In this document: piece after piece, positions 12,306 through 64,000 of the stretch
How positions within the stretch are numbered: position 1 is the stretch's first letter
Layout: each line of letters starts with the position of its first letter
Assembly: GCF_030036535.1 (NCBI RefSeq)
Contig: NZ_CP080389.1
Location: forward strand, 124,001-188,000
Reading direction: 5' to 3'
Source: Agrobacterium cucumeris
GTDB taxonomy: Bacteria > Pseudomonadota > Alphaproteobacteria > Rhizobiales > Rhizobiaceae
DNA length: 64,000 nucleotides
Translations under genes and position numbers: made by a program
Notes under the pieces: model-generated
The model's input: only the letters and a program-made list of their open reading frames with translations
What the model was told of the DNA's origin: nothing
Database searches by the model: none

Positions 12306-12574
12306 GAAGGACGGCGAAGATGACAATAGGGACAATGATCGGGATCGACCTGGCGAAGAACGTTTTCCAGGTGCATGGAGCCTCAATGACCGGGGAGCTA
12401 AAGTTCCGCAGGAAGCTATCTCGGCTACAGTTCCGCAAGTTCATGGCGGACCATCCTGTGGCAACCGTGGTGATGGAAGCCTGCGGAAGCGCGCACTATT
12501 GGGCTCGGGAGATGGCCAGACATGGCCATGAGGTAAAGCTGATCGCACCGCAGTATGTGCGGCCCTTCGTAAAG
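12306..12574 (+). pseudogene. IS110 family transposase, N-terminal half (type a)
   Basis: From ATG 12320 the frame reads MTIGTMIGIDLAKNVFQVHG and continues through MEACGSAHYWAREM to the RPFVK motif, the RuvC-like N-terminal domain of IS110 transposases. The Val-Lys codons GTAAAG (12569-12574) are the last original ones; the RIT junction follows. The matching C-terminal half (starting VKRQKND) is not next to the other end of this RIT copy, but a suitable candidate lies at 63710-64000. Confidence 0.85.
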
Positions 12575-12600
12575 TTATGCTCACCTCGCCATAATTTGAC
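12569..12600. repeat. Palindromic att-like module, left side of RIT copy 1
   Basis: The layout is GTAAAG, TTATG, a 10-base spacer (CTCACCTCGC), CATAA, TTTGAC. TTATG and CATAA are inverted arms. The outer hexamers are the recombination sextets found at all RIT junctions (here TTTGAC has one change from CTTGAC). An almost identical, directly repeated module flanks the right end at 16411-16442. Confidence 0.75.
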
Positions 12601-12655
12601 TAATCACGAGGTCGTCGTAATGCGGAGGAGCGCGGCCTGATCGGCGGATTTTCGC
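12601..12655 (+). repeat. RIT copy 1 left terminal inverted repeat
   Basis: 55 bases, perfectly complementary to 16356-16410. It begins TAATCACGAGG and contains TAATGCGGAGGA, which recurs once more as a subterminal direct repeat inside the right end (near 16329-16340). These are probably recombinase arm sites. Confidence 0.9.
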
Positions 12656-12695
12656 TGTTTTCCGATCGGCTTGCTTTGCATTATTCGGTGCCGAA

Positions 12696-12723
12696 CCTCT
12701 GCGGGTCAATCGACCAACAGAGG
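12696..12723 (+). promoter_or_regulatory. Hairpin covering the ritA ribosome binding site
   Basis: CCTCTG (12696-12701) can pair with CAGAGG (12718-12723), and inside it GGTC pairs with GACC around an AATC loop. The 3' arm contains the Shine-Dalgarno AGAGGA located 7 bases before the ritA ATG, so the structure would lower translation. The same hairpin is in the other two copies (30759-30786 and 59995-60022). Confidence 0.55.
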
Positions 12724-12731
12724 ACTCGCCA

Positions 12732-13961
12732 ATGCCCTATATCCGTCACGAACTAATTGCCGCACTCAATTCCTCCCTTATCAGTCAGCGATACAGCCCG
12801 GTCGTGGTGAGGAATTACTGCACCTACGCATCTGGATTTCTCGATTATCTGGGACAGCGGGGCATCCTGGTCGCAGACGTGATCGACGTGCAGGTAGAGC
12901 AATACCTGCGGCACGCGATCGTAAAGTTCGAAAAGGAGCGTGGTCGACGTCCCGGCGCACGCTGGCACGAGGTTCCGCGCTCCGGAATTCATGCGCTGTT
13001 GCGACTTGCTCACGGTCAATGGCCGCCAGCAATCGAGCCTATCTGCGCGGCCGATGTGGCCCGATTTGCAGTTTGTGACGAATACGAAATCTGGCTGCGT
13101 GAGGAACGCGGGTTGGCTCGCTCCAGCGTCGCAGCGCTGATGTGGGAAGCCCGGAACTTTCTTGCCTGGCAGATCGATTACGGAAGCGGCGGCTTGGCGG
13201 GGCTGAGCGTCGTTGACGTAGACCGTTACATGGATCTGCGCGCGCCGAAACTGACGCGCTGCTCGCTGAAGTCTGTCGCAGAGCGGCTTCGCTCGCTGCT
13301 GCGATATCTCCACATCACGGGTCGCGTCACAACGGACCTGTCAGGGCATGTGATAGCTCCGACGCTTTATGCATATGAAGGAGTGCCCTCAATCCTGGAG
13401 CGAGACCAGATCGCCGCGGTGCTGGAAACCGCGAGGGCGGACAAGACGCCAGCGGGGCTGCGGGACCATGCAATCCTGCAACTCCTTGCAACATATGGGC
13501 TACGGTCTGGAGAGATCCGCAATCTGCGGATCGAGGACATCGACTGGCGGACGGAAGCCATCCATGTTCGCCACCACAAGACGCGGGCCAGCACATCGCT
13601 GCCCCTGATGGAGCCGGTCGGTGAAGCGTTGCTTGCTTATCTGCGTTCCGGGCGGCCCGTGACGGACGCCAGGGAAATCTTCCTCCGCACGCGCGCGCCC
13701 TATCGCAAGCTCGACAAGCTTTACAGCGTGGTTCGCCGGTGGCTCCGTGACGCTGGTGTCCAACCGCCTGGTAAGTGTGGACCCCATATCTTCCGCCATG
13801 CGCGCGCTGTTGAGATGTTGCGGGTCGCGGTGCCTCAAAAGGTCATCGGCGACGTGCTGGGGCACCGTTCGACGGGATCGACGGCTCCCTACCTCAAGCT
13901 CGCCACCGAGGACCTCAGGGCCATTGCGCTTGACGTGCCGGGAATGGAGGTGCTGGCATGA
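12732..13961 (+). CDS. ritA: RIT tyrosine recombinase A (copy 1)
   Basis: A 409-residue tyrosine recombinase. An N-terminal SAM-like core-binding domain (about residues 1-200, RYSPVVVRNYCTYASGFLDYL) is followed by the catalytic domain: first Arg in TYGLRSGEIRNL, HIFRHARAVEML (His-x-x-Arg), LGHRSTGSTAPY (His and the nucleophilic Tyr). All catalytic residues are present, so it looks active. ATG 12732 has AGAGGA upstream inside a hairpin. Its stop overlaps the ritB start by four bases. It acts with RitB and RitC, probably as a complex on the element ends. Confidence 0.9.
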   Translation: MPYIRHELIAALNSSLISQRYSPVVVRNYCTYASGFLDYLGQRGILVADVIDVQVEQYLRHAIVKFEKERGRRPGARWHEVPRSGIHALLRLAHGQWPPAIEPICAADVARFAVCDEYEIWLREERGLARSSVAALMWEARNFLAWQIDYGSGGLAGLSVVDVDRYMDLRAPKLTRCSLKSVAERLRSLLRYLHITGRVTTDLSGHVIAPTLYAYEGVPSILERDQIAAVLETARADKTPAGLRDHAILQLLATYGLRSGEIRNLRIEDIDWRTEAIHVRHHKTRASTSLPLMEPVGEALLAYLRSGRPVTDAREIFLRTRAPYRKLDKLYSVVRRWLRDAGVQPPGKCGPHIFRHARAVEMLRVAVPQKVIGDVLGHRSTGSTAPYLKLATEDLRAIALDVPGMEVLA

Positions 13962-15325
13962 CCGCCCGCTGGCCCGATCCCGACCGCGCGATCATTGACC
14001 GCCATGTCGCGATCCTTGATCTGCACAGCATGAAAAGCCGAGCCTGTTATCGGCAGGTCCTGCATGGCTTCCAGGATGTGGCCGAACGTTACGATGCACT
14101 CGGTCAGGAAGTGCTGATTGCGTGGCTGCGTAAATCGGCCGAATGCTGGGCAGCGACGACGCGGCTACACCGCACCCGCATCATTGACCGGTTCCTCGAA
14201 CGCCTGGTGGAAATCGGCGCGATCGAACGCAATCCCGTCACCGCTCTGCGAGATGCGTGCAATATCAAGCAGTGCATGCCCATCTGGCGGGCATTGGCGT
14301 CGCGGGATCCGGAACAGGCTCTCGCCGAACTGCGCCAGCCCAGGCCGTTCGGCAGCGTGCTGGGCGAAATGATGGCTGAGCATGTCGCGATGATGCGGCG
14401 CAGAGGATACAAATACACTTCGCAGCCCCTGTTGCTCTTGCGGTTCGACCGGTTCCTGCAGCTGCATCCGGGACCGGAGGCCGAACCGCTGAGCGCCATG
14501 GTTGATCGATGGGCGGCAACGAATGTCACGCGTCACCAAGTGGAGGAATGCGAAAAGCTCAAACGCGTCTTTGCGAAAATCCTTCGTCACCGCGACCCGT
14601 CGATACCTGTGCGGCGACCGGACCCGAGACCGAGGAAGGAGGCGGCCAGGCAATGGCGAAAGGCTCATATCTACTCGCCTGCCGACGTGCGGCGGATGCT
14701 CGAGGTTGCCCGCACCTATCCGTCTCCACGGGTGCCGCTTCGGCCGCTGAGCATGTACACAATGCTGCTGCTGGCCTATTGCGCAGGCTTGCGGCGCGGC
14801 GAGCTTGCCCGGCTCGATCTTGGTGACGTTGACCTGCGGGACGGTACGGTAACCGTCCGGCAGACCAAGTTCTTCAAGACTCGGATACTGCCGCTTCCCG
14901 ACAGCGTTGTAGTCGAGCTTCGCGCCTACGTCGATGCACGGCGTCGTGCCGGTGGATCACAGGACGCGCGCTCCGGCTTGTTCTGGCACGAGCGAGGCGA
15001 CGGTCACTACACGCCGGAAATGATCACGTGGTTGCTCTCTGACGTCATACGTCGCGCTGGGTTGAAGCCATTGCGAGGAAAAGCGGGCCCTCGCGTTCAT
15101 GACCTGCGCCACTCGATGGTCGTGAACAGAATCCTGGAATGGTACCGGACGGGCATCAACCCGCAGGATCGCCTGCCGTTCCTCGCGACCTATCTCGGCC
15201 ATAGGGATATCAACTCTACATTGGTCTACATCACCGTCACGCAGGAGCTGCTGCATTACGCGAATGAGCGGTTCCGGGCAGTTGGCGCACCGTGCCTCAG
15301 CATGGGGCAGGAGATGCGGCCATGA
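13958..15325 (+). CDS. ritB: RIT tyrosine recombinase B (copy 1)
   Basis: A 455-residue tyrosine recombinase, the middle member of the trio. Catalytic signatures are CAGLRRGELARLDL (Arg), HDLRHSMVVNRI (His-x-x-Arg) and LGHRDINSTLVYI (His, Tyr). The N-terminal part is longer and more basic than in simple integrases. Both ends overlap neighbours by four bases (ATGA), so the three proteins are translationally coupled and probably made in a fixed ratio. Confidence 0.9.
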   Translation: MTARWPDPDRAIIDRHVAILDLHSMKSRACYRQVLHGFQDVAERYDALGQEVLIAWLRKSAECWAATTRLHRTRIIDRFLERLVEIGAIERNPVTALRDACNIKQCMPIWRALASRDPEQALAELRQPRPFGSVLGEMMAEHVAMMRRRGYKYTSQPLLLLRFDRFLQLHPGPEAEPLSAMVDRWAATNVTRHQVEECEKLKRVFAKILRHRDPSIPVRRPDPRPRKEAARQWRKAHIYSPADVRRMLEVARTYPSPRVPLRPLSMYTMLLLAYCAGLRRGELARLDLGDVDLRDGTVTVRQTKFFKTRILPLPDSVVVELRAYVDARRRAGGSQDARSGLFWHERGDGHYTPEMITWLLSDVIRRAGLKPLRGKAGPRVHDLRHSMVVNRILEWYRTGINPQDRLPFLATYLGHRDINSTLVYITVTQELLHYANERFRAVGAPCLSMGQEMRP

Positions 15326-16326
15326 GCAAGGTTGACCGGTTCCCGGCCCTGCTGCGCGCGTTCTTCTACGAATGGCTGGTCGAGCAGCGCAACGCATCCA
15401 TCCATACAGTCCGATCATACCGCGATACCTGGCGGTTGTTGCTCCGGTTCGTCGCCCAGCGTACTGGGAAGAAGGTGGCTATGATCACGCTGGCCGATCT
15501 GGCCGCCAGCGAGGTCGCCGCGTTCCTCAGTCACGCCGAACATGACCGTGGCGGTACGATCGGCACGCGCAACTGCCGGCTTGCGGCGATCCGCAGCTTC
15601 TTCCACTTCGTGGCCACAAGGGATCCTGGATCGATCGCGCAATGCGTGGAAATCCTCAACATACCGATCAAGCGCGCTCCGGTGTCGGAACCGAGCTATC
15701 TGGATCCGGCGGAAGTGACGGCGATCCTCGCTCAGCCAGATCGTTCGACCATTGAGGGCATGCGGGATCATGCGCTGCTCTCGTTCCTCTACAACAGCGG
15801 CGCACGAATACAGGAAGCGCTCGACCTTTGCCCAGAAGCAATCCGGTTCGAAAGCCCGAGTTGCGTGCGTTTGACCGGTAAGGGACGGAAGGAACGTATC
15901 TGTCCGCTCTGGCCAGAAACCGTGATGTTGCTGCGGAAACTGCTTGAACGGCAACCACGGGCGCCCGACCAGCGGCTGTTCGTCAACCGCTATGGCGAGC
16001 CGCTCAGCGCCTCCGGGGTCCGGTTCAAGCTCGCCGCCTACGTGAAGGCGGCGGCCGAAACCATGCCAACGCTGCGTGCCAAGCACGTAACGCCACACGC
16101 CTTCCGGCACGCCACCGCCGTGCACCTCATCTCGGCCGGCGTCGACATTACGGTCATCCGAAGCTGGCTCGGTCATGTCAGCCTCGACACGACCAACCAC
16201 TATGCCAGGGCCAATCTGGAAACGAAGCGGAAAGCCCTGGAAAAGGTCGCCGTTCCAGCCACACCCGGCAGCCAGCCATCCTGGAAGCGCGATGCCAGCG
16301 TGCTCGCCTGGCTCGACACACTCTGA
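15322..16326 (+). CDS. ritC: RIT tyrosine recombinase C (copy 1)
   Basis: A 334-residue XerC/D-like tyrosine recombinase: NSGARIQEAL (Arg), HAFRHATAVHLI (His-x-x-Arg), LGHVSLDTTNHYARAN (His, Tyr). I chose ATG 15322, which overlaps the ritB stop as ATGA and follows CAGGAG; a start at 15292 would lie inside ritB. A long open frame on the opposite strand across this gene is a G+C-driven shadow. Confidence 0.9.
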   Translation: MSKVDRFPALLRAFFYEWLVEQRNASIHTVRSYRDTWRLLLRFVAQRTGKKVAMITLADLAASEVAAFLSHAEHDRGGTIGTRNCRLAAIRSFFHFVATRDPGSIAQCVEILNIPIKRAPVSEPSYLDPAEVTAILAQPDRSTIEGMRDHALLSFLYNSGARIQEALDLCPEAIRFESPSCVRLTGKGRKERICPLWPETVMLLRKLLERQPRAPDQRLFVNRYGEPLSASGVRFKLAAYVKAAAETMPTLRAKHVTPHAFRHATAVHLISAGVDITVIRSWLGHVSLDTTNHYARANLETKRKALEKVAVPATPGSQPSWKRDASVLAWLDTL

Positions 16327-16355
16327 AATAATGCGGAGGAACATCGACAAGAACG

Positions 16356-16410
16356 GCGAAAATCCGCCGATCAGGCCGCGCTCCTCCGCATTACGACGAC
16401 CTCGTGATTA
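16356..16410 (-). repeat. RIT copy 1 right terminal inverted repeat
   Basis: Exact inverted copy of 12601-12655; it ends CCTCGTGATTA, then the sextet GTAAAG. Confidence 0.9.
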
Positions 16411-16442
16411 GTAAAGTTATGCTCACCTCGCCATAACTTGAC
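16411..16442. repeat. Palindromic att-like module, right side of RIT copy 1
   Basis: GTAAAG, TTATG, CTCACCTCGC, CATAA, CTTGAC. It has the same orientation as the left-hand module, so the two form a direct repeat, and it is the same as the module right of copy 2 (34474-34505). CTTGAC is the complement of the target Val-Lys codons GTCAAG of the adjoining IS110 gene. Confidence 0.75.
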
Positions 16443-16777
16443 AAAGGGCTTAACGTAGGCCGGCGGGATCAAGCGAACATCATGGCCAAGTTTGCCGATC
16501 TCACGCGCCCAGTAATGCGCGGTGGCGCAGGCCTCCATCGCGACGATGCATTTGGGCAGTTCCGTAAAGAAGGTGACGACTTGGCCGCGAGACAGTTTCC
16601 TGCGCAAGACCACACTTCCATCGCTTCTGGCGGCATGAACCTGAAACACCCGCTTTGCAAGGTCCAGGCCAACGATGCTAACTTCCTTCATGGATGCTCT
16701 CTCCTCTAAGTGACGTTCTCGCGAACGTCACTCTGGCACATTGCGATGCCGTCGGGAGGGGGCATCCACTCCATCAG
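16437..16777 (-). pseudogene. IS110 family transposase, N-terminal half (type c) with element end
   Basis: From ATG 16691 the minus-strand frame reads MKEVSIVGLDLAKRVFQVHAARSDGSV, then AMEACATAHYWAREIG and PPAYVKPFVK, stopping at the RIT junction at codon 85. It is a different IS110 type from the one on the left side (roughly half of the residues agree). The upstream end GGGGGCATCCACTCCATCAG (16758-16777) is a subterminal IS110-type end in inverse orientation, like that of type b. The C-terminal half is not in this window. Confidence 0.8.
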
Positions 16778-16796
16778 CTCTCAGTGCAAATCAACA

Positions 16797-17221
16797 CCCG
16801 CACCCTTGTCGCGTCATCAATGGCAGTGAACTGGAAGCGTCGAACCTTTTCACCGCACGCCCCTTTAAAAGTCAGGAACTTGACGTCCATCTGAATGTGG
16901 TGGAGATAATATTTGCTCCGGAGATGGAGAACCTTCTCTTCGATCTCGATAGGCGTTCTGTTGGCGTGCCATTTAGGAATGGGCGGGTGATTCACCAAAC
17001 CGGCGTCGCCGTGTTTCCGATAGGCTTCACGCCAACGGTAGAAGCTGCTGCGACCAATCCCAAAATACCGGCAGGTCTTCGCAACATGCCCAGTCTCGTC
17101 AGCATGCCGCAGAATGCGTAGCTTGCGCTGTATCTCGCGCTGATCCTTGTTCATGTGCATCTCCATCGTCCCAGAATTGGGAAGCTAATGGAAATGTCCC
17201 GCGAGTACCGACATATCTACA
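16797..17221 (-). pseudogene. IS481 family remnant, internally deleted and truncated
   Basis: It starts from the IS481 terminus (complement of 17208-17221, TGTAGATATGTCGG) and ATG 17166. The first ~88 residues agree with the intact family members in this window, then the sequence jumps from SKYYL directly to HHIQMDVKFLTF, an in-frame loss of about 60 codons at 16902-16905. It breaks off at TRVRV where the IS110 end begins. It is non-functional. Confidence 0.85.
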
Positions 17222-17224
17222 CGC

Positions 17225-18175: not shown

Positions 18176-18540
18176 TCGTCAGATGCTCAACTTGCTCGGT
18201 CGAAGGATTGAGAAGTCATCCTACGATTCCTCGTCTCGTCAATATCCTATCTAACAAGGCCAGATCGCCACGACAATCCCGCAATACACATTTCTGGGGA
18301 AGTCGATTATCCGGTTGAAAATAGTAAGACGTCATGGTATTTAGATCGCAGTGGGAAGCGACGAGGCCGTCGAGACACGGCTAACCCGAATCTCAAGTGG
18401 CGGGGAATGGCTTGAAGAAGCTCAGGTAAAGCAAGGTGCCCGTCCTATTGCCGTCATCTCTTCGATGGGAATTTTCGGCAGAGAAACGGTCAATATACGT
18501 GATCAGACGTCATACTAAATCGCAGGAGGGTAATTTTCAG
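18176..18540. promoter_or_regulatory. Divergent control region, double MarR / monooxygenase
   Basis: 365 bases without a gene between the two divergent starts. It must contain both promoters. CGCAGGAGGG at 18521-18530 is the ribosome binding site of the monooxygenase. No perfect palindrome long enough to be called an operator was found by eye. Confidence 0.45.
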
Positions 18541-26923: not shown

Positions 26924-27583
26924 GAATTTGGCTTGGAATTCGTGGCCGTTGTCGGTCCTGATCTCATGGATTCGGAACGGGAACTTCTCGATGATGTGGT
27001 CGACGAAGTCGATGGCGCTAGCCTGGGTGTGTTTCTCGTAGATTTTCAGAGCCCGCACCCTTGTCGCGTCATCAATGGCAGTGAACTGGAAGCGTCGAAC
27101 CTTTTCACCGCACGCCCCTTTAAAAGTCAGGAACTTGACGTCCATCTGAATGTGGTGGCCGGGAACCTGCTTGTTGTAACGCTTGGTATGGACCTTGCGT
27201 AGGCGGGTGCCGCGCGGAAGGCGGTTGACGCCATTGCGTTTCAATATTCGGGAGACGGTTGCGTCTGATACCTTGATGCCGTGATACCGCGCCAGATACC
27301 AAACGATGCGCATGGGTCCGAGATAATATTTGCTCCGGAGATGGAGAACCTTCTCTTCGATCTCGATAGGCGTTCTGTTGGCGTGCCATTTAGGAATGGG
27401 CGGGTGATTCACCAAACCGGCGTCGCCGTGTTTCCGATAGGCTTCACGCCAACGGTAGAAGCTGCTGCGACCAATCCCAAAATACCGGCAGGTCTTCGCA
27501 ACATGCCCAGTCTCGTCAGCATGCCGCAGAATGCGTAGCTTGCGCTGTATCTCGCGCTGATCCTTGTTCATGTGCATCTCCAT
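26924..27583 (-). pseudogene. IS481 transposase, N-terminal part
   Basis: From ATG 27583 it reads MEMHMNKDQREIQRKLRIL, an HTH region (TGHVAKTCRYFGIGRSSFYRWRE), then the DDE core up to HEIRTDNGHEFQAKF, where the IS21-b insertion begins. It joins in frame to 24043-24293 across the 8-bp duplication. Confidence 0.9.
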
Positions 27584-27638
27584 CGTCCCAGAATTGGGAA
27601 GCTAATGGAAATGTCCCGCGAGTACCGACATATCTACA

Positions 27639-29576: not shown

Positions 29577-29898
29577 TAACCGTAATTAGCCTCCGGCAAA
29601 CCCGGCGCGTGTGTGGATGCCCCCGACTTTGCAAGGGTTTTCTTCCGATTTCTTTTGCAGCATGTTGCTTCTATCGGTCGTGTGTCAGGCCTCTGATCGT
29701 GGCCTGCGCCACGGGGCCGGTATGCAGTTCGAAGAACAGGGGCCACATCGGTTCAAAGAGCTTTGTGCTCGAGCCCCGGGACTGGTTTACCCCGTCCTGA
29801 ACATTGAAGTCCTTGCCGCATAGGTCGTCAGTCGATTTCCTTGCCGGGATCAAACGACCCCGAGACGTTCGCCGCTACCTCCTGTAGGAGGTGACGGT

Positions 29899-30663
29899 TC
29901 ACGCCATTCGATAATCTTGCTCTCTTGTCATGATCGCCCATATGATCCGGGCCATCTTGTTGGCCAAGGCAACAGCCGCAACCATGCGAGGTTTGCGCCC
30001 GACAAGCTGTCCAAGCCAGTTGTCTGGCAAAATGCCCTTTCGGATGATCCAGCGAATCCGGCTCATAGCGCCGATAATCAGCAGTTTTCGGATATCGGAC
30101 TGGCCCATTTTACTCACCCCGCCATGACGTTGCTTGCCACCCGTAGACCTCTGCCGTGGCACTATGCCGAGCCAGGCGGCAAAGTTCCTGCCGCTGGAAA
30201 ACGTGCGCAGATCCGGAGCAAACGCCATTACTGCACCGGCCGTCACTGGTCCCACACCTGGCACCGTGCAGAGACGCCGCATCTCAAGGGTTTCTTTTAT
30301 AGCGCCTCTCAGCCTGAGGGTCAGGCCATCGATCTTGGCCGTAAGCAGGGCAATCTGATCAAGGTAAAGTTGGGCCATCTCCCTGACGCTGTCCGGGATC
30401 TGGATGGTCTCGTCCTCCAGCAGGGCCGCTGCTTGCTTGAGATGGGTTGGCCCTTGCGGAAAGACCAGACCGAACTCGGCTAAGTGACCCCGCAGCGCAT
30501 TGATCAGTTGCGTACGCTGGCGAACAAAGCACTGGTGGGTTCGGAAAACTACAGCGCGCGCTTGATGCTCGGCGCTCTTCACAGCAACACAATGCATGTT
30601 CGGGCGCAATACCGCTTCAGCAATTGCCGCAGCATCTGCCGCGTCATTCTTCTGCCGCTTGAC
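29899..30663 (-). pseudogene. IS110 transposase type b, C-terminal part
   Basis: After the RIT junction the minus-strand frame continues VKRQKNDAADAAAIAEAVLRPN, then a helical linker and the transposase_20 domain (CTVPGVGPVTAGAVMAF, AAWLGIVPRQRSTGGKQRHGGVSKMGQSDIRKLLIIGAMS), ending at TREQDYRMA. The serine of the second active site lies in the STGGK region. The N-terminal part is at 34500-34754, on the other side of the RIT. The 290 bases between 29610 and 29898 are non-coding IS end. Confidence 0.9.
30658..30663. repeat. RIT copy 2 left junction sextet
   Basis: CTTGAC, complement of GTCAAG (Val-Lys codons 84-85 of the target transposase). The same sextet in the same orientation is at 34500-34505 beyond the right-hand palindromic module, so it behaves as the strand-exchange overlap or target duplication. 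Confidence 0.75.
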
Positions 30664-30794
30664 TAATCACGAGGTCGTCGTAATGCGGAGGAGCGCGGCC
30701 TGATCGGCGGATTTTCGCTGTTTTCCGATCGGCTTGCTTTGCATTATTCGGTGCCGAACCTCTGCGGGTCAATCGACCAACAGAGGACTCGCCA

Positions 30795-32024
30795 ATGCCC
30801 TATATCCGTCACGAACTAATTGCCGCACTCAATTCCTCCCTTATCAGTCAGCGATACAGCCCGGTCGTGGTGAGGAATTACTGCACCTACGCATCTGGAT
30901 TTCTCGATTATCTGGGACAGCGGGGCATCCTGGTCGCAGACGTGATCGACGTGCAGGTAGAGCAATACCTGCGGCACGCGATCGTAAAGTTCGAAAAGGA
31001 GCGTGGTCGACGTCCCGGCGCACGCTGGCACGAGGTTCCGCGCTCCGGAATTCATGCGCTGTTGCGACTTGCTCACGGTCAATGGCCGCCAGCAATCGAG
31101 CCTATCTGCGCGGCCGATGTGGCCCGATTTGCAGTTTGTGACGAATACGAAATCTGGCTGCGTGAGGAACGCGGGTTGGCTCGCTCCAGCGTCGCAGCGC
31201 TGATGTGGGAAGCCCGGAACTTTCTTGCCTGGCAGATCGATTACGGAAGCGGCGGCTTGGCGGGGCTGAGCGTCGTTGACGTAGACCGTTACATGGATCT
31301 GCGCGCGCCGAAACTGACGCGCTGCTCGCTGAAGTCTGTCGCAGAGCGGCTTCGCTCGCTGCTGCGATATCTCCACATCACGGGTCGCGTCACAACGGAC
31401 CTGTCAGGGCATGTGATAGCTCCGACGCTTTATGCATATGAAGGAGTGCCCTCAATCCTGGAGCGAGACCAGATCGCCGCGGTGCTGGAAACCGCGAGGG
31501 CGGACAAGACGCCAGCGGGGCTGCGGGACCATGCAATCCTGCAACTCCTTGCAACATATGGGCTACGGTCTGGAGAGATCCGCAATCTGCGGATCGAGGA
31601 CATCGACTGGCGGACGGAAGCCATCCATGTTCGCCACCACAAGACGCGGGCCAGCACATCGCTGCCCCTGATGGAGCCGGTCGGTGAAGCGTTGCTTGCT
31701 TATCTGCGTTCCGGGCGGCCCGTGACGGACGCCAGGGAAATCTTCCTCCGCACGCGCGCGCCCTATCGCAAGCTCGACAAGCTTTACAGCGTGGTTCGCC
31801 GGTGGCTCCGTGACGCTGGTGTCCAACCGCCTGGTAAGTGTGGACCCCATATCTTCCGCCATGCGCGCGCTGTTGAGATGTTGCGGGTCGCGGTGCCTCA
31901 AAAGGTCATCGGCGACGTGCTGGGGCACCGTTCGACGGGATCGACGGCTCCCTACCTCAAGCTCGCCACCGAGGACCTCAGGGCCATTGCGCTTGACGTG
32001 CCGGGAATGGAGGTGCTGGCATGA
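30795..32024 (+). CDS. ritA: RIT tyrosine recombinase A (copy 2)
   Basis: Same 409-residue sequence as the product of 12732-13961, with the Arg/His-x-x-Arg/His/Tyr catalytic set (GLRSGEI, HIFRHA, GHRSTGSTAPY) intact. It has the same Shine-Dalgarno hairpin upstream (30759-30786) and a four-base overlap with ritB. Confidence 0.9.
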   Translation: MPYIRHELIAALNSSLISQRYSPVVVRNYCTYASGFLDYLGQRGILVADVIDVQVEQYLRHAIVKFEKERGRRPGARWHEVPRSGIHALLRLAHGQWPPAIEPICAADVARFAVCDEYEIWLREERGLARSSVAALMWEARNFLAWQIDYGSGGLAGLSVVDVDRYMDLRAPKLTRCSLKSVAERLRSLLRYLHITGRVTTDLSGHVIAPTLYAYEGVPSILERDQIAAVLETARADKTPAGLRDHAILQLLATYGLRSGEIRNLRIEDIDWRTEAIHVRHHKTRASTSLPLMEPVGEALLAYLRSGRPVTDAREIFLRTRAPYRKLDKLYSVVRRWLRDAGVQPPGKCGPHIFRHARAVEMLRVAVPQKVIGDVLGHRSTGSTAPYLKLATEDLRAIALDVPGMEVLA

Positions 32025-33388
32025 CCGCCCGCTGGCCCGATCCCGACCGCGCGATCATTGACCGCCATGTCGCGATCCTTGATCTGCACAGCATGAAAAG
32101 CCGAGCCTGTTATCGGCAGGTCCTGCATGGCTTCCAGGATGTGGCCGAACGTTACGATGCACTCGGTCAGGAAGTGCTGATTGCGTGGCTGCGTAAATCG
32201 GCCGAATGCTGGGCAGCGACGACGCGGCTACACCGCACCCGCATCATTGACCGGTTCCTCGAACGCCTGGTGGAAATCGGCGCGATCGAACGCAATCCCG
32301 TCACCGCTCTGCGAGATGCGTGCAATATCAAGCAGTGCATGCCCATCTGGCGGGCATTGGCGTCGCGGGATCCGGAACAGGCTCTCGCCGAACTGCGCCA
32401 GCCCAGGCCGTTCGGCAGCGTGCTGGGCGAAATGATGGCTGAGCATGTCGCGATGATGCGGCGCAGAGGATACAAATACACTTCGCAGCCCCTGTTGCTC
32501 TTGCGGTTCGACCGGTTCCTGCAGCTGCATCCGGGACCGGAGGCCGAACCGCTGAGCGCCATGGTTGATCGATGGGCGGCAACGAATGTCACGCGTCACC
32601 AAGTGGAGGAATGCGAAAAGCTCAAACGCGTCTTTGCGAAAATCCTTCGTCACCGCGACCCGTCGATACCTGTGCGGCGACCGGACCCGAGACCGAGGAA
32701 GGAGGCGGCCAGGCAATGGCGAAAGGCTCATATCTACTCGCCTGCCGACGTGCGGCGGATGCTCGAGGTTGCCCGCACCTATCCGTCTCCACGGGTGCCG
32801 CTTCGGCCGCTGAGCATGTACACAATGCTGCTGCTGGCCTATTGCGCAGGCTTGCGGCGCGGCGAGCTTGCCCGGCTCGATCTTGGTGACGTTGACCTGC
32901 GGGACGGTACGGTAACCGTCCGGCAGACCAAGTTCTTCAAGACTCGGATACTGCCGCTTCCCGACAGCGTTGTAGTCGAGCTTCGCGCCTACGTCGATGC
33001 ACGGCGTCGTGCCGGTGGATCACAGGACGCGCGCTCCGGCTTGTTCTGGCACGAGCGAGGCGACGGTCACTACACGCCGGAAATGATCACGTGGTTGCTC
33101 TCTGACGTCATACGTCGCGCTGGGTTGAAGCCATTGCGAGGAAAAGCGGGCCCTCGCGTTCATGACCTGCGCCACTCGATGGTCGTGAACAGAATCCTGG
33201 AATGGTACCGGACGGGCATCAACCCGCAGGATCGCCTGCCGTTCCTCGCGACCTATCTCGGCCATAGGGATATCAACTCTACATTGGTCTACATCACCGT
33301 CACGCAGGAGCTGCTGCATTACGCGAATGAGCGGTTCCGGGCAGTTGGCGCACCGTGCCTCAGCATGGGGCAGGAGATGCGGCCATGA
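32021..33388 (+). CDS. ritB: RIT tyrosine recombinase B (copy 2)
   Basis: Same 455-residue sequence as 13958-15325; catalytic motifs GLRRGEL, HDLRHS and GHRDINSTLVY are present. ATGA overlaps on both sides. Confidence 0.9.
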   Translation: MTARWPDPDRAIIDRHVAILDLHSMKSRACYRQVLHGFQDVAERYDALGQEVLIAWLRKSAECWAATTRLHRTRIIDRFLERLVEIGAIERNPVTALRDACNIKQCMPIWRALASRDPEQALAELRQPRPFGSVLGEMMAEHVAMMRRRGYKYTSQPLLLLRFDRFLQLHPGPEAEPLSAMVDRWAATNVTRHQVEECEKLKRVFAKILRHRDPSIPVRRPDPRPRKEAARQWRKAHIYSPADVRRMLEVARTYPSPRVPLRPLSMYTMLLLAYCAGLRRGELARLDLGDVDLRDGTVTVRQTKFFKTRILPLPDSVVVELRAYVDARRRAGGSQDARSGLFWHERGDGHYTPEMITWLLSDVIRRAGLKPLRGKAGPRVHDLRHSMVVNRILEWYRTGINPQDRLPFLATYLGHRDINSTLVYITVTQELLHYANERFRAVGAPCLSMGQEMRP

Positions 33389-34389
33389 GCAAGGTTGACC
33401 GGTTCCCGGCCCTGCTGCGCGCGTTCTTCTACGAATGGCTGGTCGAGCAGCGCAACGCATCCATCCATACAGTCCGATCATACCGCGATACCTGGCGGTT
33501 GTTGCTCCGGTTCGTCGCCCAGCGTACTGGGAAGAAGGTGGCTATGATCACGCTGGCCGATCTGGCCGCCAGCGAGGTCGCCGCGTTCCTCAGTCACGCC
33601 GAACATGACCGTGGCGGTACGATCGGCACGCGCAACTGCCGGCTTGCGGCGATCCGCAGCTTCTTCCACTTCGTGGCCACAAGGGATCCTGGATCGATCG
33701 CGCAATGCGTGGAAATCCTCAACATACCGATCAAGCGCGCTCCGGTGTCGGAACCGAGCTATCTGGATCCGGCGGAAGTGACGGCGATCCTCGCTCAGCC
33801 AGATCGTTCGACCATTGAGGGCATGCGGGATCATGCGCTGCTCTCGTTCCTCTACAACAGCGGCGCACGAATACAGGAAGCGCTCGACCTTTGCCCAGAA
33901 GCAATCCGGTTCGAAAGCCCGAGTTGCGTGCGTTTGACCGGTAAGGGACGGAAGGAACGTATCTGTCCGCTCTGGCCAGAAACCGTGATGTTGCTGCGGA
34001 AACTGCTTGAACGGCAACCACGGGCGCCCGACCAGCGGCTGTTCGTCAACCGCTATGGCGAGCCGCTCAGCGCCTCCGGGGTCCGGTTCAAGCTCGCCGC
34101 CTACGTGAAGGCGGCGGCCGAAACCATGCCAACGCTGCGTGCCAAGCACGTAACGCCACACGCCTTCCGGCACGCCACCGCCGTGCACCTCATCTCGGCC
34201 GGCGTCGACATTACGGTCATCCGAAGCTGGCTCGGTCATGTCAGCCTCGACACGACCAACCACTATGCCAGGGCCAATCTGGAAACGAAGCGGAAAGCCC
34301 TGGAAAAGGTCGCCGTTCCAGCCACACCCGGCAGCCAGCCATCCTGGAAGCGCGATGCCAGCGTGCTCGCCTGGCTCGACACACTCTGA
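33385..34389 (+). CDS. ritC: RIT tyrosine recombinase C (copy 2)
   Basis: Same 334-residue sequence as 15322-16326; motifs SGARIQEAL, HAFRHA and GHVSLDTTNHY are intact. ATG 33385 overlaps the ritB stop. Confidence 0.9.
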   Translation: MSKVDRFPALLRAFFYEWLVEQRNASIHTVRSYRDTWRLLLRFVAQRTGKKVAMITLADLAASEVAAFLSHAEHDRGGTIGTRNCRLAAIRSFFHFVATRDPGSIAQCVEILNIPIKRAPVSEPSYLDPAEVTAILAQPDRSTIEGMRDHALLSFLYNSGARIQEALDLCPEAIRFESPSCVRLTGKGRKERICPLWPETVMLLRKLLERQPRAPDQRLFVNRYGEPLSASGVRFKLAAYVKAAAETMPTLRAKHVTPHAFRHATAVHLISAGVDITVIRSWLGHVSLDTTNHYARANLETKRKALEKVAVPATPGSQPSWKRDASVLAWLDTL

Positions 34390-34473
34390 AATAATGCGGA
34401 GGAACATCGACAAGAACGGCGAAAATCCGCCGATCAGGCCGCGCTCCTCCGCATTACGACGACCTCGTGATTA

Positions 34474-34505
34474 GTAAAGTTATGCTCACCTCGCCATAAC
34501 TTGAC
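34474..34505. repeat. Palindromic att-like module, right side of RIT copy 2
   Basis: GTAAAG, TTATG, CTCACCTCGC, CATAA, CTTGAC. If the element were circularised by joining the two CTTGAC sextets, this module would sit between the two 55-bp inverted repeats and form the centre of a long palindrome, a plausible attP. Confidence 0.75.
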
Positions 34506-34754
34506 GAAAGGCTTTACATAAATAGGCGGAATCAGCCTGACATCGTGGCCGCTGCTCTGCGCGACGCGGCCCCAATAGTGGCTGGTCGCGCACGCTTCCA
34601 TTGCCACAATGCATGGCTCCTGCGTATCAAGCACCTGCATCAGCTTCGCGCGGGAAACCGTACGGTTAAATAGAACCGCCCCACCCCGATCAGTGCCACA
34701 GATCTGAAAGCTTCGTTTGGCGAGGTCAATTGCCAAAATATGCACGTTAGACAT
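34500..34754 (-). pseudogene. IS110 transposase type b, N-terminal part
   Basis: From ATG 34754 it reads MSNVHILAIDLAKRSFQICGTDRGGAVLF, AMEACATSHYWGRVAQ and PPIYVKPFVK, 85 codons ending exactly at the RIT junction. It has AAGGAGGAGACC upstream. The DEDD-type first Asp lies in AIDLAK. It joins in frame with 29899-30663 if the RIT is removed. Confidence 0.9.
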
Positions 34755-34837
34755 GGTCTCCTCCTTCAAATGCGCCACCCTGGCGCGGATGACATCATAC
34801 GATGCCAGGCGAAGGGGCATCCACCGCATCAGTTCAG

Positions 34838-55212: not shown

Positions 55213-55258
55213 TAGTCCTCATCAGTTGTAAAAAAGAGGCGTTTGATCCGGTATAATC

Positions 55259-58533: not shown

Positions 58534-58583
58534 GCCGTAACTCCCAAAAATTTCATGCGGTCATTCCCGTTTGTTTTTTGCAA

Positions 58584-58611
58584 TTGATAAGACATATTAC
58601 GATCTAGTCAA
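58584..58611 (-). promoter_or_regulatory. Possible promoter of the Pot operon
   Basis: Minus-strand TTGACT (complement of 58606-58611), 16 bases, TATCAA (complement of 58584-58589). The region between here and 58684 holds nothing else recognisable. Confidence 0.4.
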
Positions 58612-58684
58612 GCACTGTTGCCCTAATCCGCTAAACTGAGTTTTGGAGCGCCGATTGATTCCCGCGAGGATGGCAGAAGCGATA

Positions 58685-58845
58685 CTGAACTGATGCGGTG
58701 GATGCCCCTTCGCCTGGCATCGTATGATGTCATCCGCGCCAGGGTGGCGCATTTGAAGGAGGAGACCATGTCTAACGTGCATATTTTGGCAATTGACCTC
58801 GCCAAACGAAGCTTTCAGATCTGTGGCACTGATCGGGGTGGGGCG
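58685..58845 (+). pseudogene. IS110 type b, 5' end and first 26 codons
   Basis: Inverted copy of the right end of the 29.6-34.8-kb element: same CTGAACTGATGCGG end, same upstream region and ATG 58768 (MSNVHILAIDLAKRSFQICGTDRGG). After GGGCG it switches to the opposite end of the same IS (TGTGTGGATGCCCCC). So one IS110 b copy appears to have entered another, or the two recombined here. Confidence 0.82.
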
Positions 58846-59899
58846 TGTGTGGATGCCCCCGACTTTGCAAGGGTTTTCTTCCGATTTCTTTTGCAGCATG
58901 TTGCTTCTATCGGTCGTGTGTCAGGCCTCTGATCGTGGCCTGCGCCACGGGGCCGGTATGCAGTTCGAAGAACAGGGGCCACATCGGTTCAAAGAGCTTT
59001 GTGCTCGAGCCCCGGGACTGGTTTACCCCGTCCTGAACATTGAAGTCCTTGCCGCATAGGTCGTCAGTCGATTTCCTTGCCGGGATCAAACGACCCCGAG
59101 ACGTTCGCCGCTACCTCCTGTAGGAGGTGACGGTTCACGCCATTCGATAATCTTGCTCTCTTGTCATGATCGCCCATATGATCCGGGCCATCTTGTTGGC
59201 CAAGGCAACAGCCGCAACCATGCGAGGTTTGCGCCCGACAAGCTGTCCAAGCCAGTTGTCTGGCAAAATGCCCTTTCGGATGATCCAGCGAATCCGGCTC
59301 ATAGCGCCGATAATCAGCAGTTTTCGGATATCGGACTGGCCCATTTTACTCACCCCGCCATGACGTTGCTTGCCACCCGTAGACCTCTGCCGTGGCACTA
59401 TGCCGAGCCAGGCGGCAAAGTTCCTGCCGCTGGAAAACGTGCGCAGATCCGGAGCAAACGCCATTACTGCACCGGCCGTCACTGGTCCCACACCTGGCAC
59501 CGTGCAGAGACGCCGCATCTCAAGGGTTTCTTTTATAGCGCCTCTCAGCCTGAGGGTCAGGCCATCGATCTTGGCCGTAAGCAGGGCAATCTGATCAAGG
59601 TAAAGTTGGGCCATCTCCCTGACGCTGTCCGGGATCTGGATGGTCTCGTCCTCCAGCAGGGCCGCTGCTTGCTTGAGATGGGTTGGCCCTTGCGGAAAGA
59701 CCAGACCGAACTCGGCTAAGTGACCCCGCAGCGCATTGATCAGTTGCGTACGCTGGCGAACAAAGCACTGGTGGGTTCGGAAAACTACAGCGCGCGCTTG
59801 ATGCTCGGCGCTCTTCACAGCAACACAATGCATGTTCGGGCGCAATACCGCTTCAGCAATTGCCGCAGCATCTGCCGCGTCATTCTTCTGCCGCTTGAC
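58846..59899 (-). mobile_element. IS110 type b, 3' part (second copy)
   Basis: Same sequence as 29610-30663, offset by 29,236 bases. It includes the C-terminal transposase part (59135-59899, VKRQKNDAADAAAIAEA to QDYRMA) on the minus strand and the non-coding end. The matching N-terminal half is absent on the far side of RIT copy 3. Confidence 0.9.
59135..59899 (-). pseudogene. IS110 transposase type b, C-terminal part (second copy)
   Basis: Same protein fragment as 29899-30663, starting at the junction codons VK and containing the transposase_20 domain (CTVPGVGPVTAGAVMAF). It lacks the catalytic N-terminal domain. Confidence 0.9.
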
Positions 59900-60030
59900 T
59901 AATCACGAGGTCGTCGTAATGCGGAGGAGCGCGGCCTGATCGGCGGATTTTCGCTGTTTTCCGATCGGCTTGCTTTGCATTATTCGGTGCCGAACCTCTG
60001 CGGGTCAATCGACCAACAGAGGACTCGCCA

Positions 60031-61260
60031 ATGCCCTATATCCGTCACGAACTAATTGCCGCACTCAATTCCTCCCTTATCAGTCAGCGATACAGCCCGG
60101 TCGTGGTGAGGAATTACTGCACCTACGCATCTGGATTTCTCGATTATCTGGGACAGCGGGGCATCCTGGTCGCAGACGTGATCGACGTGCAGGTAGAGCA
60201 ATACCTGCGGCACGCGATCGTAAAGTTCGAAAAGGAGCGTGGTCGACGTCCCGGCGCACGCTGGCACGAGGTTCCGCGCTCCGGAATTCATGCGCTGTTG
60301 CGACTTGCTCACGGTCAATGGCCGCCAGCAATCGAGCCTATCTGCGCGGCCGATGTGGCCCGATTTGCAGTTTGTGACGAATACGAAATCTGGCTGCGTG
60401 AGGAACGCGGGTTGGCTCGCTCCAGCGTCGCAGCGCTGATGTGGGAAGCCCGGAACTTTCTTGCCTGGCAGATCGATTACGGAAGCGGCGGCTTGGCGGG
60501 GCTGAGCGTCGTTGACGTAGACCGTTACATGGATCTGCGCGCGCCGAAACTGACGCGCTGCTCGCTGAAGTCTGTCGCAGAGCGGCTTCGCTCGCTGCTG
60601 CGATATCTCCACATCACGGGTCGCGTCACAACGGACCTGTCAGGGCATGTGATAGCTCCGACGCTTTATGCATATGAAGGAGTGCCCTCAATCCTGGAGC
60701 GAGACCAGATCGCCGCGGTGCTGGAAACCGCGAGGGCGGACAAGACGCCAGCGGGGCTGCGGGACCATGCAATCCTGCAACTCCTTGCAACATATGGGCT
60801 ACGGTCTGGAGAGATCCGCAATCTGCGGATCGAGGACATCGACTGGCGGACGGAAGCCATCCATGTTCGCCACCACAAGACGCGGGCCAGCACATCGCTG
60901 CCCCTGATGGAGCCGGTCGGTGAAGCGTTGCTTGCTTATCTGCGTTCCGGGCGGCCCGTGACGGACGCCAGGGAAATCTTCCTCCGCACGCGCGCGCCCT
61001 ATCGCAAGCTCGACAAGCTTTACAGCGTGGTTCGCCGGTGGCTCCGTGACGCTGGTGTCCAACCGCCTGGTAAGTGTGGACCCCATATCTTCCGCCATGC
61101 GCGCGCTGTTGAGATGTTGCGGGTCGCGGTGCCTCAAAAGGTCATCGGCGACGTGCTGGGGCACCGTTCGACGGGATCGACGGCTCCCTACCTCAAGCTC
61201 GCCACCGAGGACCTCAGGGCCATTGCGCTTGACGTGCCGGGAATGGAGGTGCTGGCATGA
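60031..61260 (+). CDS. ritA: RIT tyrosine recombinase A (copy 3)
   Basis: Third copy of the same 409-residue recombinase, with all catalytic motifs and the upstream hairpin (59995-60022). Confidence 0.9.
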   Translation: MPYIRHELIAALNSSLISQRYSPVVVRNYCTYASGFLDYLGQRGILVADVIDVQVEQYLRHAIVKFEKERGRRPGARWHEVPRSGIHALLRLAHGQWPPAIEPICAADVARFAVCDEYEIWLREERGLARSSVAALMWEARNFLAWQIDYGSGGLAGLSVVDVDRYMDLRAPKLTRCSLKSVAERLRSLLRYLHITGRVTTDLSGHVIAPTLYAYEGVPSILERDQIAAVLETARADKTPAGLRDHAILQLLATYGLRSGEIRNLRIEDIDWRTEAIHVRHHKTRASTSLPLMEPVGEALLAYLRSGRPVTDAREIFLRTRAPYRKLDKLYSVVRRWLRDAGVQPPGKCGPHIFRHARAVEMLRVAVPQKVIGDVLGHRSTGSTAPYLKLATEDLRAIALDVPGMEVLA

Positions 61261-62624
61261 CCGCCCGCTGGCCCGATCCCGACCGCGCGATCATTGACCG
61301 CCATGTCGCGATCCTTGATCTGCACAGCATGAAAAGCCGAGCCTGTTATCGGCAGGTCCTGCATGGCTTCCAGGATGTGGCCGAACGTTACGATGCACTC
61401 GGTCAGGAAGTGCTGATTGCGTGGCTGCGTAAATCGGCCGAATGCTGGGCAGCGACGACGCGGCTACACCGCACCCGCATCATTGACCGGTTCCTCGAAC
61501 GCCTGGTGGAAATCGGCGCGATCGAACGCAATCCCGTCACCGCTCTGCGAGATGCGTGCAATATCAAGCAGTGCATGCCCATCTGGCGGGCATTGGCGTC
61601 GCGGGATCCGGAACAGGCTCTCGCCGAACTGCGCCAGCCCAGGCCGTTCGGCAGCGTGCTGGGCGAAATGATGGCTGAGCATGTCGCGATGATGCGGCGC
61701 AGAGGATACAAATACACTTCGCAGCCCCTGTTGCTCTTGCGGTTCGACCGGTTCCTGCAGCTGCATCCGGGACCGGAGGCCGAACCGCTGAGCGCCATGG
61801 TTGATCGATGGGCGGCAACGAATGTCACGCGTCACCAAGTGGAGGAATGCGAAAAGCTCAAACGCGTCTTTGCGAAAATCCTTCGTCACCGCGACCCGTC
61901 GATACCTGTGCGGCGACCGGACCCGAGACCGAGGAAGGAGGCGGCCAGGCAATGGCGAAAGGCTCATATCTACTCGCCTGCCGACGTGCGGCGGATGCTC
62001 GAGGTTGCCCGCACCTATCCGTCTCCACGGGTGCCGCTTCGGCCGCTGAGCATGTACACAATGCTGCTGCTGGCCTATTGCGCAGGCTTGCGGCGCGGCG
62101 AGCTTGCCCGGCTCGATCTTGGTGACGTTGACCTGCGGGACGGTACGGTAACCGTCCGGCAGACCAAGTTCTTCAAGACTCGGATACTGCCGCTTCCCGA
62201 CAGCGTTGTAGTCGAGCTTCGCGCCTACGTCGATGCACGGCGTCGTGCCGGTGGATCACAGGACGCGCGCTCCGGCTTGTTCTGGCACGAGCGAGGCGAC
62301 GGTCACTACACGCCGGAAATGATCACGTGGTTGCTCTCTGACGTCATACGTCGCGCTGGGTTGAAGCCATTGCGAGGAAAAGCGGGCCCTCGCGTTCATG
62401 ACCTGCGCCACTCGATGGTCGTGAACAGAATCCTGGAATGGTACCGGACGGGCATCAACCCGCAGGATCGCCTGCCGTTCCTCGCGACCTATCTCGGCCA
62501 TAGGGATATCAACTCTACATTGGTCTACATCACCGTCACGCAGGAGCTGCTGCATTACGCGAATGAGCGGTTCCGGGCAGTTGGCGCACCGTGCCTCAGC
62601 ATGGGGCAGGAGATGCGGCCATGA
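61257..62624 (+). CDS. ritB: RIT tyrosine recombinase B (copy 3)
   Basis: Third copy of the same 455-residue recombinase; overlaps ritA and ritC by four bases each. Confidence 0.9.
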   Translation: MTARWPDPDRAIIDRHVAILDLHSMKSRACYRQVLHGFQDVAERYDALGQEVLIAWLRKSAECWAATTRLHRTRIIDRFLERLVEIGAIERNPVTALRDACNIKQCMPIWRALASRDPEQALAELRQPRPFGSVLGEMMAEHVAMMRRRGYKYTSQPLLLLRFDRFLQLHPGPEAEPLSAMVDRWAATNVTRHQVEECEKLKRVFAKILRHRDPSIPVRRPDPRPRKEAARQWRKAHIYSPADVRRMLEVARTYPSPRVPLRPLSMYTMLLLAYCAGLRRGELARLDLGDVDLRDGTVTVRQTKFFKTRILPLPDSVVVELRAYVDARRRAGGSQDARSGLFWHERGDGHYTPEMITWLLSDVIRRAGLKPLRGKAGPRVHDLRHSMVVNRILEWYRTGINPQDRLPFLATYLGHRDINSTLVYITVTQELLHYANERFRAVGAPCLSMGQEMRP

Positions 62625-63625
62625 GCAAGGTTGACCGGTTCCCGGCCCTGCTGCGCGCGTTCTTCTACGAATGGCTGGTCGAGCAGCGCAACGCATCCAT
62701 CCATACAGTCCGATCATACCGCGATACCTGGCGGTTGTTGCTCCGGTTCGTCGCCCAGCGTACTGGGAAGAAGGTGGCTATGATCACGCTGGCCGATCTG
62801 GCCGCCAGCGAGGTCGCCGCGTTCCTCAGTCACGCCGAACATGACCGTGGCGGTACGATCGGCACGCGCAACTGCCGGCTTGCGGCGATCCGCAGCTTCT
62901 TCCACTTCGTGGCCACAAGGGATCCTGGATCGATCGCGCAATGCGTGGAAATCCTCAACATACCGATCAAGCGCGCTCCGGTGTCGGAACCGAGCTATCT
63001 GGATCCGGCGGAAGTGACGGCGATCCTCGCTCAGCCAGATCGTTCGACCATTGAGGGCATGCGGGATCATGCGCTGCTCTCGTTCCTCTACAACAGCGGC
63101 GCACGAATACAGGAAGCGCTCGACCTTTGCCCAGAAGCAATCCGGTTCGAAAGCCCGAGTTGCGTGCGTTTGACCGGTAAGGGACGGAAGGAACGTATCT
63201 GTCCGCTCTGGCCAGAAACCGTGATGTTGCTGCGGAAACTGCTTGAACGGCAACCACGGGCGCCCGACCAGCGGCTGTTCGTCAACCGCTATGGCGAGCC
63301 GCTCAGCGCCTCCGGGGTCCGGTTCAAGCTCGCCGCCTACGTGAAGGCGGCGGCCGAAACCATGCCAACGCTGCGTGCCAAGCACGTAACGCCACACGCC
63401 TTCCGGCACGCCACCGCCGTGCACCTCATCTCGGCCGGCGTCGACATTACGGTCATCCGAAGCTGGCTCGGTCATGTCAGCCTCGACACGACCAACCACT
63501 ATGCCAGGGCCAATCTGGAAACGAAGCGGAAAGCCCTGGAAAAGGTCGCCGTTCCAGCCACACCCGGCAGCCAGCCATCCTGGAAGCGCGATGCCAGCGT
63601 GCTCGCCTGGCTCGACACACTCTGA
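62621..63625 (+). CDS. ritC: RIT tyrosine recombinase C (copy 3)
   Basis: Third copy of the same 334-residue recombinase; ATG 62621 overlaps the ritB stop. Confidence 0.9.
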   Translation: MSKVDRFPALLRAFFYEWLVEQRNASIHTVRSYRDTWRLLLRFVAQRTGKKVAMITLADLAASEVAAFLSHAEHDRGGTIGTRNCRLAAIRSFFHFVATRDPGSIAQCVEILNIPIKRAPVSEPSYLDPAEVTAILAQPDRSTIEGMRDHALLSFLYNSGARIQEALDLCPEAIRFESPSCVRLTGKGRKERICPLWPETVMLLRKLLERQPRAPDQRLFVNRYGEPLSASGVRFKLAAYVKAAAETMPTLRAKHVTPHAFRHATAVHLISAGVDITVIRSWLGHVSLDTTNHYARANLETKRKALEKVAVPATPGSQPSWKRDASVLAWLDTL

Positions 63626-63709
63626 AATAATGCGGAGGAACATCGACAAGAACGGCGAAAATCCGCCGATCAGGCCGCGCTCCTCCGCATTACGACGACC
63701 TCGTGATTA

Positions 63710-64000
63710 GTGAAGCGCCAGAAGAACGATGCCGCGGATGCCGAAGCGATCGTTATCGCCGCGCAGCGACCTGAGATGCGCTTCATCACGCCGAAGGCAG
63801 AGGAACAGCAAGCGCAAGCGCTTCTGTTCCGCGGAAGAGAGCGACTTGTGCGTCAGCGTACGGAGCTAGTGAACGCGCTGCGCTCAATCCTTTACGAGTT
63901 CGGGCATCCGACTCCGCAGGGCATCGGGCATTTGAAGCAGATTGAGGCGATCGTCGAAGCCGAGAACAGCGATCTGCCAGTACTGGTTCGCGAGGAGTGC
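63710..64000 (+). pseudogene. IS110 family transposase, C-terminal half (type a-like, cut by window edge)
   Basis: Directly after the RIT end the plus-strand frame reads VKRQKNDAADAEAIVIAAQRPEMRF, then ALLFRGRERLVRQRTELVNALRSILYEFG and LPVLVREEC at the window edge. It is the part missing from a type a transposase such as the N-terminal half at 12320-12574; that pairing is by family resemblance only. The junction codons are GTGAAG. Confidence 0.82.

Follow-up and report, generated by a model that had tools for sequence, protein, structure and literature searches.

Three identical copies of a RIT (recombinase in trio) element lie within a 64,000-nucleotide stretch of Agrobacterium cucumeris DNA (contig NZ_CP080389.1, positions 124,001 to 188,000; hereafter the window), which belongs to a 301,850-base contig of a 5.7-Mb genome. 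Between them the copies interrupt three different types of IS110 transposase gene (a, b and c), and together with their relatives they very probably represent a transposon whose recombinases insert site-specifically at one conserved codon pair of such genes, along a path proposed below from sequence comparison. RIT elements have been known since about 2009, and passages of a 2023 source still list their target specificity as not formally tested (PMC10214605). What, then, do the ends of these elements tell us about the choice of a target?

Each body is 3810 bp long and is occupied in full by three overlapping tyrosine recombinase genes in the order ritA-ritB-ritC (409, 455 and 344 amino acids; in copy 1 the overlaps lie at 13958/13961 and 15292/15325). 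A Phage_integrase domain is found in each product. The catalytic boxes GLRSGE / HIFRH / Y of RitA and GARIQE / HAFRH / Y of RitC were recognized by pattern, as was GLRRGE in RitB, whose HDLRH / LGH / Y were read off the sequence. The terminal inverted repeats (65 nt, 97% identity) carry an overlapping palindrome, and this architecture of adjacent overlapping recombinase genes and palindrome-bearing repeats is that of published RIT elements; a Shinella element with an identical RitA is also annotated with three genes. The strand-biased circularizing integrative elements (SEs) and the GInts likewise use several tyrosine recombinases, but passages of PMC10214605 give them a fourth conserved gene (ginD/srap), whereas the window elements have three genes and no cargo.

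All six flanks of the three copies are halves of IS110 transposase genes (tblastn), and a 6-bp box, GTNAAG/CTTNAC, stands at 6/6 ends (Table 1). It corresponds to the Val-Lys codon pair of the motif YV[KR]PFVK-RQKND. A sequence-only reading of this DNA had placed the junctions at exactly these positions and had counted at least three IS110 families hit at one place, and both statements hold. Its additional “a-like” flank at 63710 is indeed IS110, but it is the 3′ half of type a and not a separate type: one intact relative (L125) matches the left half of copy 1 at 84% and this half at 90%. The motif by itself is no guide, since AARCCNTTYGTNAAG with up to two mismatches has 4 matches against 2.9 expected and 33 of 100 shuffles reach 4; a GTNAAG-type search, not being above chance, was dropped as evidence in its own right. 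The significance lies in the coincidence of the motif with the element ends.

A further feature, which had gone unnoticed in that reading, is a 20-bp core, TTATGCTCACCTCGCCATAA, located between the RIT and each of the three IS110 5′ halves of the window and at none of the three 3′ halves. For the three main targets (IS110 and two gene families described below) the layout is gene 5′ half, a first 6-bp box (h1), the core, a second box (h2), the RIT, a third box (h3), and gene 3′ half. The element arms and the core halves form inverted arms around 6 bp, as in CCTCGTGATTA - 6 bp - TTATGACGAGG, an arrangement that resembles a tyrosine-recombinase core site. In the protein, the IS110 cut falls a few codons ahead of K[NT]DxxDA, which we take to be the catalytic D..D pair; HMMER aligns this segment with RNKTDxxDA / RSKTDAVDA of IS621 and ISCro4, at 3-5 bits that are not significant alone.

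Does the rule extend beyond the window? The census drew on 77 loci from genome contigs (77 of 85 confirmed stretches), 22 plasmid loci hand-picked for variety (26 of 457 matching records were picked) and the window itself. Ends were located by pattern inside the element only and their flanks were then classified by tblastn, giving 176 ends from 95 sources including the window; leaving out two false ends (L001 at 9987, L113 at 6063), flanks shorter than 45 nt and locus L116, 145 ends from 79 sources (the window and 78 loci) remain, not all of them independent, as some loci overlap or share blocks (the contig ends of Sphingobium DEHP117; L065/L066/L069). Every core-bearing end (69/69: 34 IS110, 23 ArdC-like, 12 strawberry-notch) faces the 5′ half of a target gene, in frame and at the same codon (67 by tblastn, 2 by motif), and 70 of the 76 coreless ends face the 3′ half in the same manner (57 by tblastn, 13 by motif). 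For IS110-type RITs, 66 of 70 ends from 38 sources lie at the IS110 codon, the misses being L001, L010, L074 (of uncertain type) and L099. Within the loci examined, the observation made in the window is confirmed and stronger than stated. A RitC search (E<=1e-120) through 385 genomes across the class matched only the window's own genome.

The interpretation that accompanied the observation holds in part. These counts bear out the idea of a site-specific mobile element that lives on a conserved IS110 coding motif, as do the cases in which a single strain (window; Salipiger) carries identical RITs in IS110s that clearly differ. IS110 is not the sole host, however: relatives with RitA about 57-75% identical interrupt genes for ArdC (ArdcN and zincin-like MPTase domains) or strawberry-notch (AAA_34 and Helicase_C_4 domains, with the split gene annotated in one locus). 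The candidate generalization that all RITs target IS110 was rejected, as ArdC, strawberry-notch, IS21, IS66 and recombinase genes are interrupted as well. IS110 is thus one clade's target, and sister clades use the equivalent codon of ArdC antirestriction and strawberry-notch helicase genes. Nor is spread with any IS110 copy supported as it was put; the insertion splits the transposase gene.

The origin of the 6-bp boxes is best seen at a strawberry-notch locus (L103), whose halves, when joined through the 3′-side 6 bp, are found contiguous and 226/226 identical in three plasmids. This empty site implies that the insertion was exact, that h3 is native and that h1 and the core were brought by the element. 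It also makes of GTNAAG an exchanged spacer rather than the recognition sequence itself; GTCCGC and ATAATG are likewise found at IS110 junctions, and the codons there are not always Val-Lys, being Val-Arg (L111, L016), Ile-Met (L036) or Leu-Lys (L068). In Sphingobium DEHP117, four ArdC-type copies (L023, L026, L028 and the damaged L063) share h1 CTGGCG and h2 GCCAGG with four different h3 boxes, while the boxes of L027 (h2 CTGGCG, h3 GCCAGG) are those expected of their donor, and those of L022 (GCCAGG, CTCGAG) are those expected with L023 as donor. Contiguous ArdC homologues occur in six plasmids (87-88% over 203 of 226 bases), the joined site of L049 has five contiguous strawberry-notch counterparts at 79-91%, a comparison of overall identity that does not bear on the box letters, and one ArdC homologue (L151) is nearer to h3 than to h1; searches of plasmids for an empty strawberry-notch site of L055 and an empty ArdC site of L026 failed. 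A donor spacer on one side and the target's own on the other are therefore found at the L103 empty site and in the DEHP117 series, while at IS110 itself the boxes do not tell the two apart. A similar 6-bp spacer is described for SEs in passages of PMC10214605, where the two ends carry a fingerprint and a footprint; the window RITs differ in having two usable boxes around a 20-bp core, giving both orientations.

Could the common codon simply be inherited? All IS110::RIT loci would then descend from one old insertion, carried along as an IS110 passenger. The use of only one codon would fit, as would the IS110::RIT block common to L065 and L066 and the presence of the type b 3′ half twice in the window. 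The RIT bodies are identical, however, whereas L124, L125 and L144, the nearest intact relatives of types a and b, reach no more than 35-57% identity with the 5′ halves of the other types. A single strain can also carry RITs with identical proteins in different genes, not only here (types a, b and c) but also in Salipiger plasmids (three different IS110s) and in the ArdC genes of DEHP117. The RIT also lies either way round, the 34 IS110-type core ends dividing into 19 at the ritA end (left) and 15 at the ritC end (right), and an empty strawberry-notch site exists; common descent of the insertions is accordingly most improbable. Even harder to credit is the reverse relation, in which IS110 would insert beside RIT ends. 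IS110 is RNA-guided and IS110/IS1111 elements are choosy about their sites (cf. PMC11187229), but simple insertions put the N half and the C half of one cut coding sequence at opposite ends, and the same anatomy recurs in targets that are not IS elements at all, the ArdC and strawberry-notch genes.

The link between clade and target was followed in quickly built trees with 71 rows (22 IS110, 15 ArdC, 14 strawberry-notch, 20 unlabelled; L076, whose ritA has four stops, was left out) and L116 as the root. No locus carries two target labels. Target changes number two on the RitA tree and two on the RitB tree, the minimum for three states, and three on the RitC tree, which places the IS110 clade of the window in the midst of ArdC-type elements. 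Target choice may therefore be carried by RitA/RitB, with RitC serving the element's own ends. In the main targets the 6 bp come after Y-x-x-x-[aromatic] (exceptions: Cys in L104, Phe for Tyr in L060), and at the DNA level the distinct 5′ arms (32 IS110, 19 ArdC, 12 strawberry-notch) have T at -15 and T at -3 without exception and A at -14 with one. The codon preference might hence be nothing but a loose DNA match (TA at -15/-14, T at -3, the 6 bp and the 3′ arm), irrespective of mobile-element genes, the conserved codons being merely the commonest good matches. This is a possible account, though a less likely one, and it leaves unexplained both the restriction to one gene family per RIT clade and why the genes identified as targets belong to mobile elements or plasmids; as the molecular basis of site-specific insertion at a conserved codon, a loose match is compatible with what we propose.

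The path that would connect the site, its anatomy, the two orientations, the empty site, the clade-target link and the hybrid flanks described below, all of which can be seen in the sequences, may be outlined as follows. A donor RIT would be copied or cut out, presumably as a circle in which the 20-bp core, with 6 bp on each side of it, connects the two ends (arms of about 11 bp). Either 6-bp box would then recombine with a target at the two codons after Y-x-x-x-[FYW], in a strand order that is conjectural. The gene 5′ half would gain the element's own 6 bp and the core, and the target's own 6 bp would stay with the 3′ half. The choice among IS110, ArdC and strawberry-notch tracks the RitA/RitB lineage and RitC less so, which suggests a division of labour among the three recombinases. 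Finally, resident identical copies would recombine, shuffling flanks or possibly fusing replicons.

This last step bears directly on the window. Not every junction pair represents a simple insertion: copy 2 has simply entered type b (L144: 84% and 87% with its two halves), but copies 1 and 3 (2/3 copies) have hybrid flanks. A single IS110 type supplies both the 5′ half left of copy 1 and the 3′ half right of copy 3, pointing to RIT-RIT recombination. The two copies have the same direction, at a distance of 47,299 bp (12596 to 59895). Crossing over between them would re-form IS110a::RIT and set free a 47-kb circle; the segment between them looks like the product of a replicon fusion through RIT copies. 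Elsewhere, RITs with two 5′ halves (L019, L031, L109, L116) or two 3′ halves (L053, L064) occur, some of them on draft or metagenome contigs. L065 and L069, the latter a metagenome contig, have 6.8 kb in common at 99.9% from h1 on, and different IS110 5′ halves that switch exactly at h1. The common stretch, seen in L065, L066 and L069 from 5823 on next to two different IS110 5′ halves, holds metabolic genes and a RIT remnant, together with a transposase that by eye is IS6-like.

Several points weigh against site-specific insertion as set out here. Six of the 145 ends lie off any target codon: L001, a decayed copy, whose flank resembles a P450 gene; L010 right, L074 left and L099 right, all adjoining an IS91-like element (from open reading frames; L099 by annotation); L043, without explanation; and the second end of L047, beside a run of N in a scaffold. 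The trees are quick searches without bootstrap. A search of plasmids with the IS110 of L106 returned no empty IS110 site, the close IS110a relatives split between h3 letters (L125) and h1 letters (L124), and most IS110 boxes read GTNAAR, which leaves one strawberry-notch site and one ArdC series as the basis of the donor/target rule. No excision or integration event has been observed. Among the more distant trios taken up next, L119 has its core adjoining the gene 3′ half, opposite to the other targets, and L122 is without a core. Beside the IS91-like element, L010 and L074 have the same terminal flank.

Seven distant trios were considered (L116, L117 and L119-L122 from plasmids, L155 from the window's own genome), and 6/7 show a 20-bp palindromic core with 6 bp. 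L116 has an IS21 transposase on both sides, both of them 5′ halves (NF033546), and L120 an IS21 transposase with the rve domain on the 3′ half and istB next door. An IS66 transposase flanks L117 and L121 on both sides and L155 on one. In L119 a tyrosine recombinase is cut at its HTLRH-SFATHLLE box (3′ half E=8.5e-12; 5′ half weak, 0.0017). Comparable insertions have been reported in passages on RITs that inactivate radC (C. metallidurans, B. petrii) and IS66 tnpA (PMC2864759) and on a RIT inside a Tn6049-like transposase gene (PMC3414803). The trio of L155 (2722-5920, or C4:58721-61919 of the genome) is a second, distant one of the window's genome. Its right end carries the core TTATGCCGCGCGCGGCATAA and adjoins a decayed IS66 transposase (DDE_Tnp_IS66), and a further RitA-like gene follows at C4:63080-63754. 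Directly beside the distant Dinoroseobacter trio of L122 lies, at L122 8136-10577, a TOTE-conflict-system primase-helicase gene, which may be the interrupted target.

Taken broadly, RITs might be parasites of mobile DNA with an evolvable address, a picture for which the chances seem evenly balanced: the RitA/RitB of each clade would read one conserved motif in a gene of other mobile elements, with one jump from an ancestral-looking ArdC target to IS110 and another from ArdC to strawberry-notch, and remote clades would live on IS21, IS66, radC or recombinase genes. The 6-bp tags would record previous addresses, so that transposition genealogies could be read from finished genomes by the tags beside the core. 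Transposases split near catalytic residues would make RITs natural brakes on other elements and ports for replicon fusion. The rule is simple (each clade with its gene and its codon, the core next to the 5′ half, 6-bp tags), which makes RIT movement directly testable and insertions callable from sequence alone. It also brings into view mobile elements whose niche is the conserved genes of other mobile elements, and a natural collection of related recombinases that differ in the single site they use within conserved coding motifs. In Tn916 and CTnDOT, coupling sequences of 5-7 bp form a heterologous spacer that is carried between sites, as here, but Tn916 and CTnDOT have only one integrase and are loose in their choice of target. 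Passages of PMC10214605 mention a Tn916-like heteroduplex spacer. The published passages on RITs mention neither the clade-wide targeting of IS110, ArdC and strawberry-notch at a single codon, nor the position of the core beside the gene 5′ half, nor the donor/target rule for the 6 bp. The codon rule was not found in the portions of the RIT literature searched, and part of it may be in print in Van Houdt 2009, Ricker 2013 or Nielsen 2017; a literature search for IS110 together with RIT elements matched no paper.

Table 1. RIT copies, junctions and IS110 halves in the window.
Feature	Position	Strand	Evidence or remark
IS110 type a transposase 5′ half, ends ...YVRPF ahead of box	12236..12568	+	intact relative L125, 84% over 90 aa; tblastn
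Copy 1 left junction: h1 GTAAAG 12569-12574, 20-bp core 12575-12594, TTTGAC 12595-12600	12569..12600	+	
RIT copy 1 body, 3810 bp: ritA 12732-13961, ritB 13958-15325, ritC 15292-16326	12601..16410	+	Phage_integrase x3
Copy 1 right junction: GTAAAG 16411-16416, core 16417-16436, CTTGAC box 16437-16442	16411..16442	+	
IS110 type c transposase 5′ half, antisense, 97 open codons including VK box	16443..16727	-	tblastn; no Pfam match for 16437-16640
IS110 type b transposase 3′ half, RQKNDAADAAAI...	29899..30657	-	Transposase_20
Copy 2 left box CTTGAC (VK codons), without core	30658..30663	-	
RIT copy 2 body: ritA 30795-32024, ritB 32021-33388, ritC 33355-34389	30664..34473	+	
Copy 2 right junction: GTAAAG 34474-34479, core 34480-34499, CTTGAC box 34500-34505	34474..34505	+	
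IS110 type b transposase 5′ half	34506..34829	-	L144: 84% with 5′ half, 87% with 3′ half
IS110 type b 3′ half, second copy	59135..59893	-	within 58843-63711, identical to 29607-34475
Copy 3 left box CTTGAC, without core	59894..59899	-	
RIT copy 3 body: ritA 60031-61260, ritB 61257-62624, ritC 62591-63625; core at neither end	59900..63709	+	
Copy 3 right box GTGAAG, without core	63710..63715	+	
IS110 type a transposase 3′ half, runs past window edge	63716..64000	+	L125, 90% over 260 aa, read on beyond window (L143)

The assignment of these flanks to IS110 is also seen at the domain level. The type b 3′ half matches Transposase_20 (E=9.6e-22) and an IS110 3′ half matches NF033542 at 254 bits (cut-off 140). 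On short 5′ pieces the DEDD domain stays below cut-off, as in the type b 5′ half (DEDD_Tnp_IS110 28.5 bits, just below the cut-off of 29), and some short pieces have no domain match. Neither the type b 3′ half nor the type a 5′ half (E<=1e-35) has another near copy in the window's own genome. The 5′ end region of IS110b is present as a 161-nt inverted copy at 100% (34677-34837 and 58685-58845). It directly adjoins the second 3′ half of IS110b and gives the impression that one copy of IS110b inserted into another. Repeated pieces at 26924-27638, 45326-46040 and 16797-17221, up to 715 nt at 100%, are likely to be another insertion sequence, to which the HTH reading frame at 16774-17163 belongs.

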